This document shows, one piece after another, positions 1 to 43,379 of a stretch of 64,000 bases of DNA (its first letter is position 1; each line of letters starts with the position of its first letter). This DNA is from an uncultured Sulfitobacter sp. (GTDB lineage Bacteria > Pseudomonadota > Alphaproteobacteria > Rhodobacterales > Rhodobacteraceae). The notes beneath the pieces were generated by a model. It did not search any database. It was not told the origin of the DNA and was given only the letters and a program-made list of their open reading frames with translations. The position numbers were made by a program, and so were the translations under genes. The stretch covers positions 1,550,001-1,614,000 of the forward strand of contig NZ_CANMQD010000001.1 in assembly GCF_947499945.1 (NCBI RefSeq), written 5' to 3'.

Positions 1-219
1 TACTTATGGAGTAAATCTTCATTTTGAGCGTGTGGGTAACTCTGTGTGTTATCTTCAGTTAATGAAAGTTACCAAATGGTAAAATTATCCTTATCCACCG
101 TGGGCGAATCTCTGGCTAAGGTGGTGGAAATGACACCTTATCCCCCTCTTGAACCCAAACCCGTTATTGTCGACAAGTTGTTGTTAAGAACATCTTAAGA
201 TTATGCATGAGTTATCCCC
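1..219. other. oriC: Candidate right-hand part of the chromosomal replication origin (oriC), truncated by the window edge
   Basis: Near-consensus DnaA boxes: TTACCCACA (31-39, minus), TTATCCACC (91-99), TTATCCCCC (138-146), TTATCCCCA (212-220). CtrA box TTAAGAACATCTTAA (184-198). CcrM site GAATC (106-110). Lies directly upstream of maf-aroE-coaE-dnaQ-secB, the order found next to Cori in Caulobacter. Confidence 0.65.
184..198. promoter_or_regulatory. Perfect CtrA full-box TTAA-N7-TTAA
   Basis: ttaagaacatcttaa read directly. Confidence 0.6.
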
Positions 220-819
220 ATGAGTGTCCACATCATCCTTGCCTCAGGTTCCAGTATTAGGACCCAGATGCTCAGCCAAGCAGCGGTTCCTCACGAGGTC
301 CAACTGGCGCGGGTGGACGAGGATATGATGAAGGCATCGCTCATCGCAGAGGGTGCCCCGCCTCGCGATATTGCCGATGCTTTGGCAGAAATGAAAGCGT
401 CAAAGGTCAGTGATAAAAACCCCGGTGCTTTGGTGATAGGCTGTGATCAGGTTCTAGAGCATAACGGAACGCTTCTGAGTAAGCCTGAAACACCCCAAGA
501 GGCACTTGCGCAGCTCAAGCGGATGCGCGGAGACCGACATACGCTATTATCCGCTGCCGTGATCTTTGAAGATGGCAAACCGTTGTGGCGACATATTGGT
601 GTTGTGCGTCTACGGATGCGTGATGCGAGTGATGCATATCTCGAAGAATACGTTGAACGTAATTGGGAGAGCATCCGCCACGCCGTAGGCGCTTACAAGC
701 TTGAAGAGGAAGGCGTGCGGCTTTTCTCGCGTATTGAAGGCGATTACTTTAATGTGCTTGGCATGCCCTTGTTGGAAATCCTGAATTACCTCACCCTTCG
801 TGGAGACATTGCCCAATGA
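220..819 (+). CDS. maf: Maf-family nucleoside triphosphate pyrophosphatase
   Basis: N-terminal LASGSSIRTQML and Maf-like CDQVLE..SKP; synteny. Confidence 0.9.
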   Translation: MSVHIILASGSSIRTQMLSQAAVPHEVQLARVDEDMMKASLIAEGAPPRDIADALAEMKASKVSDKNPGALVIGCDQVLEHNGTLLSKPETPQEALAQLKRMRGDRHTLLSAAVIFEDGKPLWRHIGVVRLRMRDASDAYLEEYVERNWESIRHAVGAYKLEEEGVRLFSRIEGDYFNVLGMPLLEILNYLTLRGDIAQ

Positions 820-1652
820 CCGAACTGCCTCGCATCCCTTTGGCTGGTGTTATCGGCGCTCCGATAGCCCATTCAAAATCGCCACAGCTGCACCGTCACT
901 GGCTTAAGACTTATGGAATTGCAGGCCATTATATCCCGATGGAGGTCAGCAATGACAATCTGGAAAATGTGCTCCGCACCCTGCCCCAAATGGGATTTGT
1001 GGGCGTTAACATTACAATTCCACACAAAGAAAAGGTAATGGAAATCGCCGATCTGGTGACGGATCGTGCGATCCTGATTGGTGCTGCAAACACGCTAATT
1101 TTTCGCAAAGATGGAAAGATTCACGCGGATAACACAGATGGCTATGGCTTCATTGAAAATCTGAAAGCGGGTGCACCGCAATGGAACCCACGGTCTGGTC
1201 CGGCTGCTGTCCTTGGTGCGGGCGGCGCTGCGCGGGCAGTTATCTCATCGCTGCTTGAAGCGGGAGTTCCAGAAATCATGCTCTCTAACCGGACAAGGGT
1301 AAGAGCCGATAAGCTTAAACAGGATTTTGGAAGTCGTATTCGTGTCTATGAGTGGGTTCAGGCAGGCAATATGATTGATGATGCCGACCTGTTGGTGAAC
1401 ACAACATCGCTCGGGATGATTGGAAAGTCAGAGCTGCGCGTGCCGCTTGATGGTCTGCGCTCGTCTACAATCGTCACTGACCTCGTCTATGCACCGCTCA
1501 AGACCAAACTCCTCGCCACAGCAGAGGATTATGGCTGTGCCACTGTTGATGGTCTTGGAATGTTGCTGCATCAGGCCGTGCCTGCTTTTGAGCGTTGGTT
1601 TGGTCGCCGTCCCGAAGTGGACCGTGCCACACGCGCAGCGGCATTACGTTGA
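816..1652 (+). CDS. aroE: Shikimate dehydrogenase
   Basis: GVIGAPIAHSKSPQLH, NVTIPHKE, GAGGAARAV. Confidence 0.95.
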   Translation: MTELPRIPLAGVIGAPIAHSKSPQLHRHWLKTYGIAGHYIPMEVSNDNLENVLRTLPQMGFVGVNITIPHKEKVMEIADLVTDRAILIGAANTLIFRKDGKIHADNTDGYGFIENLKAGAPQWNPRSGPAAVLGAGGAARAVISSLLEAGVPEIMLSNRTRVRADKLKQDFGSRIRVYEWVQAGNMIDDADLLVNTTSLGMIGKSELRVPLDGLRSSTIVTDLVYAPLKTKLLATAEDYGCATVDGLGMLLHQAVPAFERWFGRRPEVDRATRAAALR

Positions 1653-2239
1653 TGTTTAAGCTTGGCCTGACAGGCTCCATCGGGATGGGTAAATCCACCA
1701 CCGCGCAGATGTTTGTTGATGAGGGTTGTGCGCTTTGGGATGCAGACGCGGCTGTGCACCGTCTCTATGCAAAAGGCGGTGCAGCTGTTGCTCCATTTGC
1801 CCAAGCTTTTCCTGAAGCAGTTATTGATGGTGCCGTTTCGCGTACTGTACTCAAAGATATCATTGGCCGTGACCAAAATGCGCTCAAGCGGATTGAGGCC
1901 ATCGTTCATCCACTTGTCGGACAGGATCGCGCGGCGTTCCTTGCTAAGACGGATGCTGACATTGTCGTGTTAGATATTCCGCTACTGTTTGAAACGGGTG
2001 GCGATGCTCGTGTGGACGCAACCGCCTGTGTATTTGTGGATGACTCGACACAAGAGGCACGTGTGATGGAGCGGGGTACGATGACGCGTGAGCAGTTCCT
2101 CAGCATCAAGGCAAAGCAACTCCCCGCATCAGAAAAATGTGCTCGCGCTACTTATGTGATCGAGACAGACACACTTGAACACGCTCACGCCCAAGTGCAG
2201 AAAATCGTTGAAACTATTCGGAGCCAGTTAAATGCGTGA
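1652..2239 (+). CDS. coaE: Dephospho-CoA kinase
   Basis: MFKLGLTGSIGMGKSTTAQMF; start moved from 1595 to the ATG at 1652. Confidence 0.93.
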   Translation: MFKLGLTGSIGMGKSTTAQMFVDEGCALWDADAAVHRLYAKGGAAVAPFAQAFPEAVIDGAVSRTVLKDIIGRDQNALKRIEAIVHPLVGQDRAAFLAKTDADIVVLDIPLLFETGGDARVDATACVFVDDSTQEARVMERGTMTREQFLSIKAKQLPASEKCARATYVIETDTLEHAHAQVQKIVETIRSQLNA

Positions 2240-2918
2240 GATCGTCCTTGATACCGAAACTACAGGTTTTGACCCCAAGACAGGCGACCGGATTGTCGAG
2301 ATTGGGGCGGTTGAATTGATGCGGCATGTCGCGACTGGTGTCACATTTCATGAATACATCAATCCAGAGCGAAGCATGCCCGACGACGCCTTCCAGGTGC
2401 ACGGTCTTGGCGATGATTTCCTTCGGGACAAGCCCAAGTTTGCGGCGGTGGGGCAGGCGTTCCTCGACTTTGTGGGCGACAGCAAAATGATCATTCACAA
2501 CGCCGCCTTTGATATGAAGTTTCTGAATTTTGAACTGGCCAAGATAGGCCTGCGACAGCTTCCTTGGGAACAGGCGGTGGATACGCTTGCAATCGCCCGA
2601 AAGAAGTTTCCCGGCTCACCGTCTTCCCTCGACGCGCTTTGTCGGCGCTTTGGCATCAATAACGATGCGCGTACGCTTCACGGTGCCCTGCTCGACAGTG
2701 AAATTCTGGCCGAAGTGTATTTAGAGTTGATTGGCGGTAAGCAGCCTGACTTTGGCCTGTCTACCCGTGCCGCGCCGAAAGTAGGTGAAGTAAGCACCGA
2801 GTGGACACCGCGCCCGCGCCCCACACCCCTGCCCTCACGGCTCACTGAAAAAGAAAACGCCGCCCACGCCGAGTTTGTCGGCAAGTTGGGCGGCGGTGCT
2901 GTTTGGCTAAAAAGCTAA
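2232..2918 (+). CDS. dnaQ: DNA polymerase III epsilon subunit
   Basis: REIVLDTETTGFDPKTGDRIVEIGAVE; HNAAFDMKFL. Confidence 0.95.
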   Translation: MREIVLDTETTGFDPKTGDRIVEIGAVELMRHVATGVTFHEYINPERSMPDDAFQVHGLGDDFLRDKPKFAAVGQAFLDFVGDSKMIIHNAAFDMKFLNFELAKIGLRQLPWEQAVDTLAIARKKFPGSPSSLDALCRRFGINNDARTLHGALLDSEILAEVYLELIGGKQPDFGLSTRAAPKVGEVSTEWTPRPRPTPLPSRLTEKENAAHAEFVGKLGGGAVWLKS

Positions 2919-36770: not shown

Positions 36771-39281
<2,511 letters not shown>

Positions 39282-40379
39282 TCATGTCAGTGTACTGACC
39301 GTTGAAACACCTTCTTCATCTGTCACCAGAATGGTCTGAGCACGCGAGCCCATCGCTTCAAAAAGGCCGTCTTCGGTGCCCGTCATCCATGCCTGTGCAC
39401 CCAGTGCAACAATTTCGTCATAGAGCGCTGCACGACGGTCGGCATCAAGGTGTGCAGCGACTTCATCCAGCAACAGCAGCGGCGGAGCGCCAAAATCACT
39501 GGCCAGCGCACGAGCATTCGCAAGGATGAGAGAGACCAACAGCGCCTTCTGCTCTCCCGTTGAGCAGTCCCGCGCCGCAACACCTTTTGCAGCATATGTG
39601 CCAAATAAATCAGCACGGTGCGGTCCAATTAGCGTCCGTCCAGCCTTGAGATCACGCATACGTCCGTCAGCCAGCGCCGAACGCATTGTATCCACATCGT
39701 CAGGCATCTCGCATTCCAGCGTGAGTGTCGCAGTTGGAAAAGCGGTCTCTGCCGCCTCCTGCGCATCTGCTAGTGCTTTGAGGGCATGCAGGCGGTTATG
39801 ATGAATTGCCACTGCGGTCTCAGCCATGCGCGCCTCAAGTGCGCCATACCATGAAGGTTCACGTACCATGTCTTTGAGAAGGCGATTCCGCTCTCGCATG
39901 GCCTTTTCATAGGCAAGCGAAATTTCGGCATGATCAGGGAGAAAGCTTAGCGTGATACGGTCGAGAAACCGGCGCCGCCCTTCTGCACCTTCAATCCAAA
40001 GGCGGTCCATTGATGGAATAAGCCACAGAACGCGCGCAATACGCCCTAGCGCCGTCTGTGGCGCAGGCTTGCCATCAATACGCACCTGCCGTGCGGCACC
40101 CTTCTCAGAGACGATTTCAATTTCGCTGACGCCTAAGGGGCCGTGTAGCAAAGCCGTAATTTTCCATCCAACGGCTTCGGGGCGGCGGGTCATGTCCTCA
40201 GCGCTTGCACGGCGCAGACCACGACCTGGGGAGAGGAGCGAGATCGCTTCGAGTATATTCGTCTTGCCCGCACCATTGTTGCCATGGATTGCAACAGGTT
40301 GTGCGCCCACTTCGATTACGGCCCGCTTATGCGATCGGAAGTGTGAAAGCGTCAATTTAGAAAGATAGAGGCCAGCCAT
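39282..40379 (-). CDS. recF: DNA replication/repair protein RecF
   Basis: LTLSHFRSHKRAVIEVG, GNNGAGKTNILEAISLLSPGRGLR. Confidence 0.95.
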   Translation of the reverse strand: MAGLYLSKLTLSHFRSHKRAVIEVGAQPVAIHGNNGAGKTNILEAISLLSPGRGLRRASAEDMTRRPEAVGWKITALLHGPLGVSEIEIVSEKGAARQVRIDGKPAPQTALGRIARVLWLIPSMDRLWIEGAEGRRRFLDRITLSFLPDHAEISLAYEKAMRERNRLLKDMVREPSWYGALEARMAETAVAIHHNRLHALKALADAQEAAETAFPTATLTLECEMPDDVDTMRSALADGRMRDLKAGRTLIGPHRADLFGTYAAKGVAARDCSTGEQKALLVSLILANARALASDFGAPPLLLLDEVAAHLDADRRAALYDEIVALGAQAWMTGTEDGLFEAMGSRAQTILVTDEEGVSTVSTLT

Positions 40380-40436
40380 CAGAGGTCGGTTTCTTCAAAA
40401 GAAAGCGCACGAAATTTTTCAACAATTCCGCACCCC

Positions 40437-41555
40437 TTATACACGCATTGGCATCACAACATAGACGGCGGAGGTGTCGTTGCCCTCACGCATCAGTGTA
40501 GGATCACCAGAGGAGTTAAACATGAACACAGCATTCTCACGGTCCACCTGAGAGGCGATCTCCAGCAGGTATTTCGCGTTGAAACCAATTTCCAAACGCT
40601 CGTCGGAATAAGCTACAGCCAATTCTTCTTCTGCAGCGCCGCTGTCCGGTGCATTTACGGAAAGGATCAAGCGGTCCTCATCAAGTTGCAACTTTACGGC
40701 ACGCGACCGCTCGGAACTTACAGTCGCCACACGGTCAACAGCGCGGGCAAAATCGGCAGCATCTACTTCAAGTTTGCGAGTGTTCCCCTGCGGAATAACA
40801 CGTGTATAATCGGGGAACGTTCCATCAATCACCTTTGATGTCAGGGTGATCAGCGGCGTGGCAAAGCGCACTTTTGTCTCGGACACTGATACGGCAATTT
40901 CCATGTCATCATCGTCTAGCAGCTTGCGCAATTCACCAACAGTCTTACGCGGTATAATCACACCGGGCATATCTGAAGCATCGGCGGGCATATCGGCGTC
41001 GATCCGGGCAAGCCGGTGGCCATCAGTGGCCACGCAGCGCAGCTTTTTGCCGCCGTCACCTTCGGCGATGTGCATGTACACACCGTTGAGATAGTAACGG
41101 GTTTCTTCCGTGGAAATCGCGAATTTTGACTTATCAAACAGGCGGCGCAGGACTGCGGCGTTGGCAGAGAAGTTCGACGCATACTCCGACGTCGCCATCA
41201 CGGGAAAATCTTCCTTGGGCAGCGTCGCGAGGGAAAAGTTCGAGCGACCCGCTTCAACGGTCAAACGACCAGCGGCATTGTCGGCTGTTAGAGAGACGAG
41301 CGCACCATCCGGCAACTTGCGAACAATCTCGTGCAGTGTTGTCGCGGCAACTGTCGTGGCGCCTGCGCGCTCGACTTGGGCTGGGGCCTTATCGACGACT
41401 TCGATGTCGAGGTCGGTTGCACGGAAGGAGACATCGCTGCCTTCAGCTTCGATCAGGACGTTCGCAAGGATCGGGATTGTATTGCGGCGCTCAACCACGG
41501 ACTGTGCCTGGCTGACGGCTTTGAGCAACGCGGCGCGTTCGATGCTGAATTTCAT
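40437..41555 (-). CDS. dnaN: DNA polymerase III beta sliding clamp
   Basis: MKFSIERAALLKAVSQAQSVVERRNTIPILANVLIEA; C-terminal VYVVMPMRV. Confidence 0.97.
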   Translation of the reverse strand: MKFSIERAALLKAVSQAQSVVERRNTIPILANVLIEAEGSDVSFRATDLDIEVVDKAPAQVERAGATTVAATTLHEIVRKLPDGALVSLTADNAAGRLTVEAGRSNFSLATLPKEDFPVMATSEYASNFSANAAVLRRLFDKSKFAISTEETRYYLNGVYMHIAEGDGGKKLRCVATDGHRLARIDADMPADASDMPGVIIPRKTVGELRKLLDDDDMEIAVSVSETKVRFATPLITLTSKVIDGTFPDYTRVIPQGNTRKLEVDAADFARAVDRVATVSSERSRAVKLQLDEDRLILSVNAPDSGAAEEELAVAYSDERLEIGFNAKYLLEIASQVDRENAVFMFNSSGDPTLMREGNDTSAVYVVMPMRV

Positions 41556-41639
41556 ATGCCTAATCTCCACTGCACAGGGTTGGGAAAATTAACGTACCCG
41601 CTTTGTGCCTGATCACAAGACTTAACGGTGTTGAAACGT

Positions 41640-41665
41640 AAAAGGCGACCCTGTGGAGGGCCGCC
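41640..41665 (-). terminator. Intrinsic terminator downstream of dnaA
   Basis: minus strand GGCGGCCCT-CCAC-AGGGTCGCC (one G.U) followed by TTTT. Confidence 0.7.
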
Positions 41666-41693
41666 CTGTGGCATCGCTGCATCGCACTGAGTA

Positions 41694-43082
41694 CTATGCC
41701 TCGAGCGAGCGGCGCAAAAGCTCTAGATCTTCTGCGATTTGGCCGTCTGATACCTTCAGTTCTTCGATCCGCTTCACACCATGCATAACTGTCGTGTGAT
41801 CACGACCGCCAAAGCGACGGCCAATTTCAGGCAGCGAGCGGCTTGTCATATGCTTGCACAAATACATGGCGACCTGACGGGGCCGCGCATAGCTGCGCAA
41901 ACGTTTGGGGCCGATCATGTCAGAGAGGCGGATGTTATAGTGGTCGGATACTTTGCGCTGTATCTCCTCTACTGTGATTTTACGCTCCGAAGCACGCAGG
42001 ACATCGGCAAGGCAATCCTGCGTTAGTTCCATATCGATTCGACGACCGACGAGCGAAGCAAAGGCAAACAGACGCGTCAATGCTCCCTCAAGAACACGCA
42101 CATTTGTCGAGATACGATGGGCAAGGAACGCAAGGATATCATCGTCCATCTCAAGCTCGGGGTAAGAGGCGCGGTGCACATCTACTTTTGTCTGCAGGAT
42201 GCCGAGGCGCAGCTCATAATCAGTGGGATGAAGATCAACCACCAGACCGCATTGTAACCGTGACTTCACGCGGTCCTCGAGATCTTTGATATCCTGCGGT
42301 GCACGGTCAGCTGAAATGATAATCTGCTTGTTTTGGTCCACCAGCGCGTTGAACGTATGAAAGAACTCTTCTTGCGTACTGTCCTTACCTGCGATGAACT
42401 GAACATCGTCTACCATCAATACGTCAACTGTGCGGAAGATTTCCTTAAAGTCCATCATTTTGCGATCACGCAGTGCTTGAACAAAGCGGTACATGAATTG
42501 CTCGGCTGACAAATAGAGCACGTTCAGTTCCGGTCTGCGTGCCTGTAGCTCTTGGGCGATGGCATGCATGAGATGCGTTTTACCCAGACCAACACCACCG
42601 TAAAGAAACAGCGGATTGAAGGTTACAGGACCACCCTCGGCGACACGGCGGGCGGCGGCATGCGCAAGCTCGTTCGGCTTACCGACAACAAAAGTGTCAA
42701 ACGAGAAACGCCTTTCCAGCGGCGCGGTATAAACCGAAGATGTATTCACAGGCTTGGGAGCTGCTGCGCGAGCTGGGGTGATCGCATCGGTCTGGCGGGT
42801 AACAAGGTCTGGCTTAGCGCTTGCGACTTCAAAATTCAGACGCGTTACGTCGGCGTCAAAGCCCTTCATCTCATGCAAGATAAGATCAGAGAAGTTTTGT
42901 GAGACGTAATTACCGAAAAAGTTGGTTGGCACGCTCAGCGTTGCAATGCCGTCCAATGTCTGACCCAACATGAGTGGATCAATCCAAGTGGTAAAGTTGT
43001 TTTGCCCGACTGTCTTAAGCAGCCGTTGCTTAACATTGGCCCATTCTTCGCGTGTCATACTTTTACTACCACCATCAATCAT
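41694..43082 (-). CDS. dnaA: Chromosomal replication initiator DnaA
   Basis: FDTFVVGKPNELAHAAA, NPLFLYGGVGLGKTHLMHAI, VDDVQFIAGKDSTQEEFFHTFN, GGRDHTTVMHGVKRIE; start set at MIDGGSKSMTREEW after a GGGGG RBS, alternative start at 43058. Confidence 0.96.
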   Translation of the reverse strand: MIDGGSKSMTREEWANVKQRLLKTVGQNNFTTWIDPLMLGQTLDGIATLSVPTNFFGNYVSQNFSDLILHEMKGFDADVTRLNFEVASAKPDLVTRQTDAITPARAAAPKPVNTSSVYTAPLERRFSFDTFVVGKPNELAHAAARRVAEGGPVTFNPLFLYGGVGLGKTHLMHAIAQELQARRPELNVLYLSAEQFMYRFVQALRDRKMMDFKEIFRTVDVLMVDDVQFIAGKDSTQEEFFHTFNALVDQNKQIIISADRAPQDIKDLEDRVKSRLQCGLVVDLHPTDYELRLGILQTKVDVHRASYPELEMDDDILAFLAHRISTNVRVLEGALTRLFAFASLVGRRIDMELTQDCLADVLRASERKITVEEIQRKVSDHYNIRLSDMIGPKRLRSYARPRQVAMYLCKHMTSRSLPEIGRRFGGRDHTTVMHGVKRIEELKVSDGQIAEDLELLRRSLEA

Positions 43083-43379
43083 GCTGCCCCCTGCAGCAAA
43101 GTCCCGATCAGCCACACGAACAAACACAGGCCGTTCCGGTCCCATCGGAAAACCGGCCCAATCCGTCGGACTGTTATTCTTTTGCGAACGCACTTTTTGG
43201 CACAAATGTACCGCCAAAGAACGAGCGACATCGTTATATAATCGTGACAGGCAATACTGCTGGCAGCAGAACTTGCAGCTCATCTCAATGGCGTTTTGTG
43301 CCATTGGAAGAGACCTTCAAATCAAGCACCACCTCTAGCAAAATGGTTCTCGATGATCGGGTCTGTCCCCCTGCGATGT

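Follow-up and report, generated by a model that had tools for sequence, protein, structure and literature searches.

A CtrA-type box at the maf end of the predicted replication origin of a Sulfitobacter genome, and its clade-limited recurrence

In the Rhodobacterales, CtrA is commonly regarded as a regulator chiefly of motility, quorum sensing and gene transfer agents. The Caulobacter origin lies in the same type of gene neighbourhood as the locus described here, and the question raised by this locus is whether CtrA may act at the replication origin of a Sulfitobacter. The original prediction had placed the edge of an origin in the first 220 bases of the sequence, with a canonical CtrA site inside it, and had read this site as a sign that CtrA and replication are still coupled. 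We analysed the window, that is, the whole stretch of 64,000 nucleotides (G000:C1:1550001-1614000), which belongs to a draft genome, G000, of 4.15 Mb in 24 contigs, assigned to Sulfitobacter by its relatives. Positions are those of the window, with negative values to the left of its first base.

Gene neighbourhood and location of the origin

The full origin corresponds to the 405-bp gap between the divergent genes hemJ and maf, which is 64% AT and extends from -185 to 219 (G000:C1:1549815-1550219); thus, the window holds just over half of it, on the maf side. The features considered here are the following (the names of aroE, coaE and dnaQ come from their sequences):

1-219: maf-side half of oriC, on the basis of the hemJ-maf gap and of the cumulative GC-skew minimum
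31-39, minus strand: DnaA box TGTGGGTAA, one mismatch
85-99, plus strand: conserved DnaA double element TTATCCTTATCCACC, containing the box TTATCCACC at 91-99, one mismatch
106-110: GAATC, a CcrM-type GANTC site, not above chance
138-146, plus strand: weak DnaA-like 9-mer TTATCCCCC, two mismatches, weakly conserved
176-198: 11-bp direct-repeat element associated with the origin (genus consensus AxAAgTCCYTAAgAAnTCCTTAA), present in G000 in degenerate form
184-198: perfect CtrA-type box TTAA-N7-TTAA, TTAAGAACATCTTAA, recurring at -36/-37 from maf
212-220, plus strand: DnaA box TTATCCCCA, one mismatch, overlapping the maf start codon
220-819, plus strand: maf, of the nucleotide pyrophosphatase/septum inhibitor family, which flanks oriC on the right
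816-2918, plus strand: aroE (816-1652), coaE (about 1652-2239) and dnaQ (2232-2918)
41694-43304, minus strand: dnaA, 42 kb from oriC, with dnaN, recF and gyrB downstream

The gene order maf-aroE-coaE-dnaQ and then secB, as originally described, is present, with secB on the opposite strand. Leftward of the window, all on the minus strand and again named from their sequences, we found hemJ and rho, then mnmE, mnmG, rsmG, parA and parB. Of the predicted left flank, hemE/rho, only rho is in place, while hemE is located on contig C10 and its position is occupied by hemJ. Two perfect parS palindromes, TGTTTCACGTGAAACA, were observed at distances of about 5.3 and 3.4 kb leftward of the window (L002:14733 and L002:16626), close to where rsmG and mnmG begin and adjoining parAB.

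GC skew, sampled in 20-kb stretches of contig C1, was negative in all the samples to the left of 1.55 Mb and positive in all those to the right. The original proposal had pointed to the cumulative skew as a check and, in the portion of contig C1 sampled, the minimum of a 120-kb stretch fell at C1:1550001, exactly on the first base of the window. The DnaA-like 9-mers first noticed at 31-39 (minus strand), 91-99, 138-146 and 212-220 were all recovered and, together with two further boxes just left of the window, they bring to five the DnaA boxes with no more than one mismatch found within 320 bp (-101, -87, 31, 91 and 212), the densest such cluster across the ~1.3 Mb of sequence scanned. Four of these boxes lie wholly inside the 405 bp, against 0.17 expected, a number equalled in 0 of the 2000 dinucleotide shuffles of the gap on which our chance estimates are based; the fifth overlaps the maf start and is hence outside this count. 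An AT-rich run is present at about -45 to +10, and the order rho-hemJ/gap/maf, with a gap of 400-410 bp, is common to nearly all of the ~100 Rhodobacterales loci compared.

The alignment of 97 Rhodobacterales origins revealed four standout blocks, at about -150 to -118, -104 to -92, 85-103 and 206-222, and the double element at 85-99 is among the best-kept stretches. The DnaA box at 212-220 has no more than one mismatch in 59 of the 60 Sulfitobacter genomes and in 56 of 67 other loci, and its core columns change 0-2 times in the tree of origins. Nearly all the Rhodobacterales examined have the maf start codon inside this box (window 212-222), so that the same bases serve both an origin site and the start of maf translation. 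The block at -150 to -118, AATAATAAAGAAA...AAAGATGATGATG (L003:9850-9882), is also among the best kept of the alignment, with the G000 copy partly diverged; inspected by eye for a DnaA-trio or an IHF site, it gave no canonical match.

Two other candidates were evaluated and rejected. An origin near dnaA, ~42 kb into the window, where the dnaA-dnaN-recF-gyrB cluster spans 36771-43304 on the minus strand, was discarded because there the GC skew is less extreme and the scan for clustered DnaA boxes found none. The GAATC predicted at 106-110 is present; however, the 405-bp gap holds 2 GANTC sites against 1.6 expected (P = 0.50), and with no excess over chance GANTC was dismissed as an origin signal. 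A plasmid search with the first 2 kb of the window gave no relevant match. Judged from its sequence, the hemJ-maf gap is almost certainly the chromosomal oriC, and the origin proposed at first is borne out by the GC skew, the DnaA-box cluster, parS/parAB, and family-wide synteny and footprints.

A CtrA-type box that recurs and is lost among relatives

The perfect TTAA-N7-TTAA predicted at 184-198 is present as TTAAGAACATCTTAA, one of 34 perfect sites in the whole 4.15-Mb genome, and the probability of such a site in the 405-bp gap was 0.047 by dinucleotide shuffles. The second, degenerate box proposed at 59-73, TTAATGAAAGTTACC, was rejected as a CtrA box, since its second half is mismatched at three of four bases. 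A better degenerate site, TTAACAAGATACTAA, with one mismatch, lies at -41, left of the window, and showed no recurrence among relatives.

At -36/-37 from maf, 18 of the 60 Sulfitobacter genomes carry a perfect box and 12 more a box with one mismatch, that is, 30/60 with no more than one mismatch in counts uncorrected for relatedness, and elsewhere in the origins of these 60 genomes no place has more than two perfect boxes. Among TTAA pairs, the N7 spacing gave 21 matches against 0-4 for spacings of 4-6 and 8-11. When loci were arranged on a Maf+HemJ tree, the box was found in 24 of the 40 rows of the Sulfitobacter-Roseobacter clade, against 3 of 58 outside it. A strict search of 397 genomes of the family returned ten with any TTAA pair before TTATCCMCATG at maf-like starts; they gave 11 matches, of which 6 had the N7 spacing.

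The original prediction had been tied to the conservation of 184-198 in close relatives, and this holds only in part: the box keeps a fixed place across the Sulfitobacter-Roseobacter clade, but it is absent in most other Rhodobacterales and is lost in G010, whose Maf is the most similar of all (91%) and whose origin reads TCGAGAACATCTTGG there, with both TTAA halves gone and an identical spacer. Among the other near relatives, L067, L068 and L069 are likewise devoid of it. On the tree of origins, the eight TTAA columns change 10 times each on average by parsimony, compared with 13.4 times over the entire gap, which puts the box only at rank 115 among the 391 placements possible. Given this mild conservation, the close relatives lacking the box, and the probability of about 5% that a gap of this kind holds a perfect box by chance, it could be argued that 184-198 in G000 has no function and is either decaying or a product of chance in AT-rich origin DNA. 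We consider this distinctly unlikely, as chance would not be expected to keep the box at one fixed place in half of the genus, and in Roseobacter too.

The best-kept feature of the site is not the TTAA pair itself. The C preceding each TTAA, at 183 (50/60) and 194 (58/60), is part of a TCCYTAA half-site repeated at 11 bp, and the first T of either TTAA is less conserved than this C and is often C itself. Before the second TTAA, C is found in 58 of the 60 origin copies, against 7 of the 33 other boxes of G000, and the pattern TCCYTAANNNNTYCYTAA gave 17 matches in the 60 Sulfitobacter genomes, 12 of them at the origin site. Since C is less frequent in the other boxes and 12/17 matches fall at this one spot, the element is origin-associated, and a generic CtrA-regulon motif was ruled out, the pattern being nearly confined to the origin in the 60 genomes. 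By its sequence, the G000 copy is one of the less typical forms of the repeat. Three TTAA at 11-bp steps, TTAAGGAAGGGTTAAGACTTCCTTAA, were also observed at G000:C2:595364-595389 (L219:3365-3390), 54 bp ahead of an open frame of 624 aa, and a similar triple array is present at the origin of G034 (L087).

Candidate binders and the possible role of the box

Both regulators evoked by these motifs are encoded in the genome: CtrA at C4:45569, 72% identical to Caulobacter CtrA and with a matching winged-helix DNA-binding region, and CcrM at C1:1749392, 74% identical to its query. Another TTAA-N7-TTAA (G000:C4:182579-182593, L225:2080) lies 30 bp upstream of a CckA-like PAS-HisKA-HATPase-REC hybrid kinase, a position which, on sequence grounds, is consistent with a feedback of CtrA on its own kinase, and a further one precedes a LuxR-type autoinducer regulator by 191 bp. 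Genes of the cckA and luxR type are among the kinds of CtrA target predicted in Dinoroseobacter (PMC4046655), and the two G000 boxes fit those predictions.

On this basis, the sequence of events that we favour is one in which DnaA would bind the box cluster at -101, -87, 31, 91 and 212 and unwind the AT-rich stretch at about -45 to +10; phosphorylated CtrA would occupy the 11-bp-spaced repeat at 184-198, beside the DnaA box that covers the start of maf, and might in this way lower the loading of DnaA at the latter and, possibly, initiation. We assign a probability of about 0.45 to a CtrA step at 184-198 in the origin. The coupling of CtrA to replication originally suggested is favoured by the fixed place of the box and by the presence of CtrA and CcrM; on the other hand, the box is confined to one clade and lost in G010, its TTAA columns are unremarkable in their conservation, and its motif is unlike that of the other boxes of G000. 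Evidence from related organisms also points in both directions: CtrA was bound near the origin in Hyphomonas by ChIP-seq (PMC7200025), whereas in Ruegeria KLH11 ctrA is dispensable and was judged probably without a role in cell-cycle control (PMC3692519).

The box could instead be a CtrA site serving the maf promoter only, as activator or repressor, and lying in the origin because maf borders it. Its 36 bp to the maf start are within the range of the other G000 boxes upstream of genes (30, 38, 39, 47, 53 and 63 bp), and the spacing to maf is fixed at 36/37; however, with a DnaA box overlapping the maf start, the distances to maf and to that box are inseparable, and in most genera maf is found there while the box is missing. 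We regard this explanation as unlikely.

To an equally small extent we credit the possibility that TCCYTAA-N4-TCCYTAA is an ori-restricted repeat whose reader is a different regulator of the OmpR family, or DnaA itself through weak sites, with TTAA-N7-TTAA being incidental. Direct repeats at 11 bp suit OmpR-family regulators generally, the C at 183 and 194 outlasts the first T of each TTAA, and the pattern matches concentrate at the origin. The half-spacing, however, is that of CtrA, N7 is the one spacing at which TTAA pairs stand out, and this explanation is so far without a candidate regulator: CenR was rejected because its Rhodobacter motif, TGA-N8-TGA, differs (PMC9275681).

Returning to CtrA, a broader proposal, which we put forward as doubtful, is that the repeat may be a CtrA-class origin brake fixed in the Sulfitobacter-Roseobacter ancestor at the maf end of oriC and now being lost lineage by lineage. 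Such a brake would represent a partial survival in an order whose CtrA is regarded as no longer tied to the control of replication and, if CtrA acts at the G000 origin, the common view of its role in Rhodobacterales would have to admit an exception specific to this lineage. Near relatives that differ naturally in the box, present in G000 and G046 and absent in G010, offer ready pairs for probing a single origin site. Whatever the binder, the family-wide footprints, including the DnaA box over the maf start codon, provide a firm map of the Rhodobacterales oriC.

Comparison with known systems

The open-access literature searched, with subscription journals mostly outside its scope, contained no report of CtrA sites in origins of Sulfitobacter or Roseobacter, and this silence is weak evidence of novelty. 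Origins of 101 Rhodobacteraceae genomes were called with Ori-Finder by Kopejtka 2019 (PMC6699656), and that paper shares with the present work the skew minimum, the DnaA boxes and the closeness to parAB as criteria; it makes no mention of CtrA and, in the parts consulted, gives no treatment of hemJ-maf footprints.

The CtrA regulon of Dinoroseobacter shibae resembles what is seen in G000 in that cckA and a luxR gene are preceded by CtrA-type boxes; ctrA mutants are altered in replication and CtrA is needed for normal replication heterogeneity, but in the parts of the study consulted CtrA binding at the origin is not among the reported results (PMC4046655). In Hyphomonas neptunium, the ChIP-seq site of CtrA adjoins the origin, whereas the G000 site is predicted from sequence; the former bacterium is stalked and budding, and its CtrA network has been studied by experiment (PMC7200025). 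Finally, as in the Cori of Caulobacter crescentus, G000 has DnaA boxes in an AT-rich gap, a TTAA-N7-TTAA inside the origin, and genes for both CtrA and CcrM. Cori, however, lies between hemE and COG1806 and has five CtrA sites (PMC1914354), whereas the G000 origin is flanked by hemJ and maf, has one perfect CtrA-type site and lies 42 kb from dnaA.
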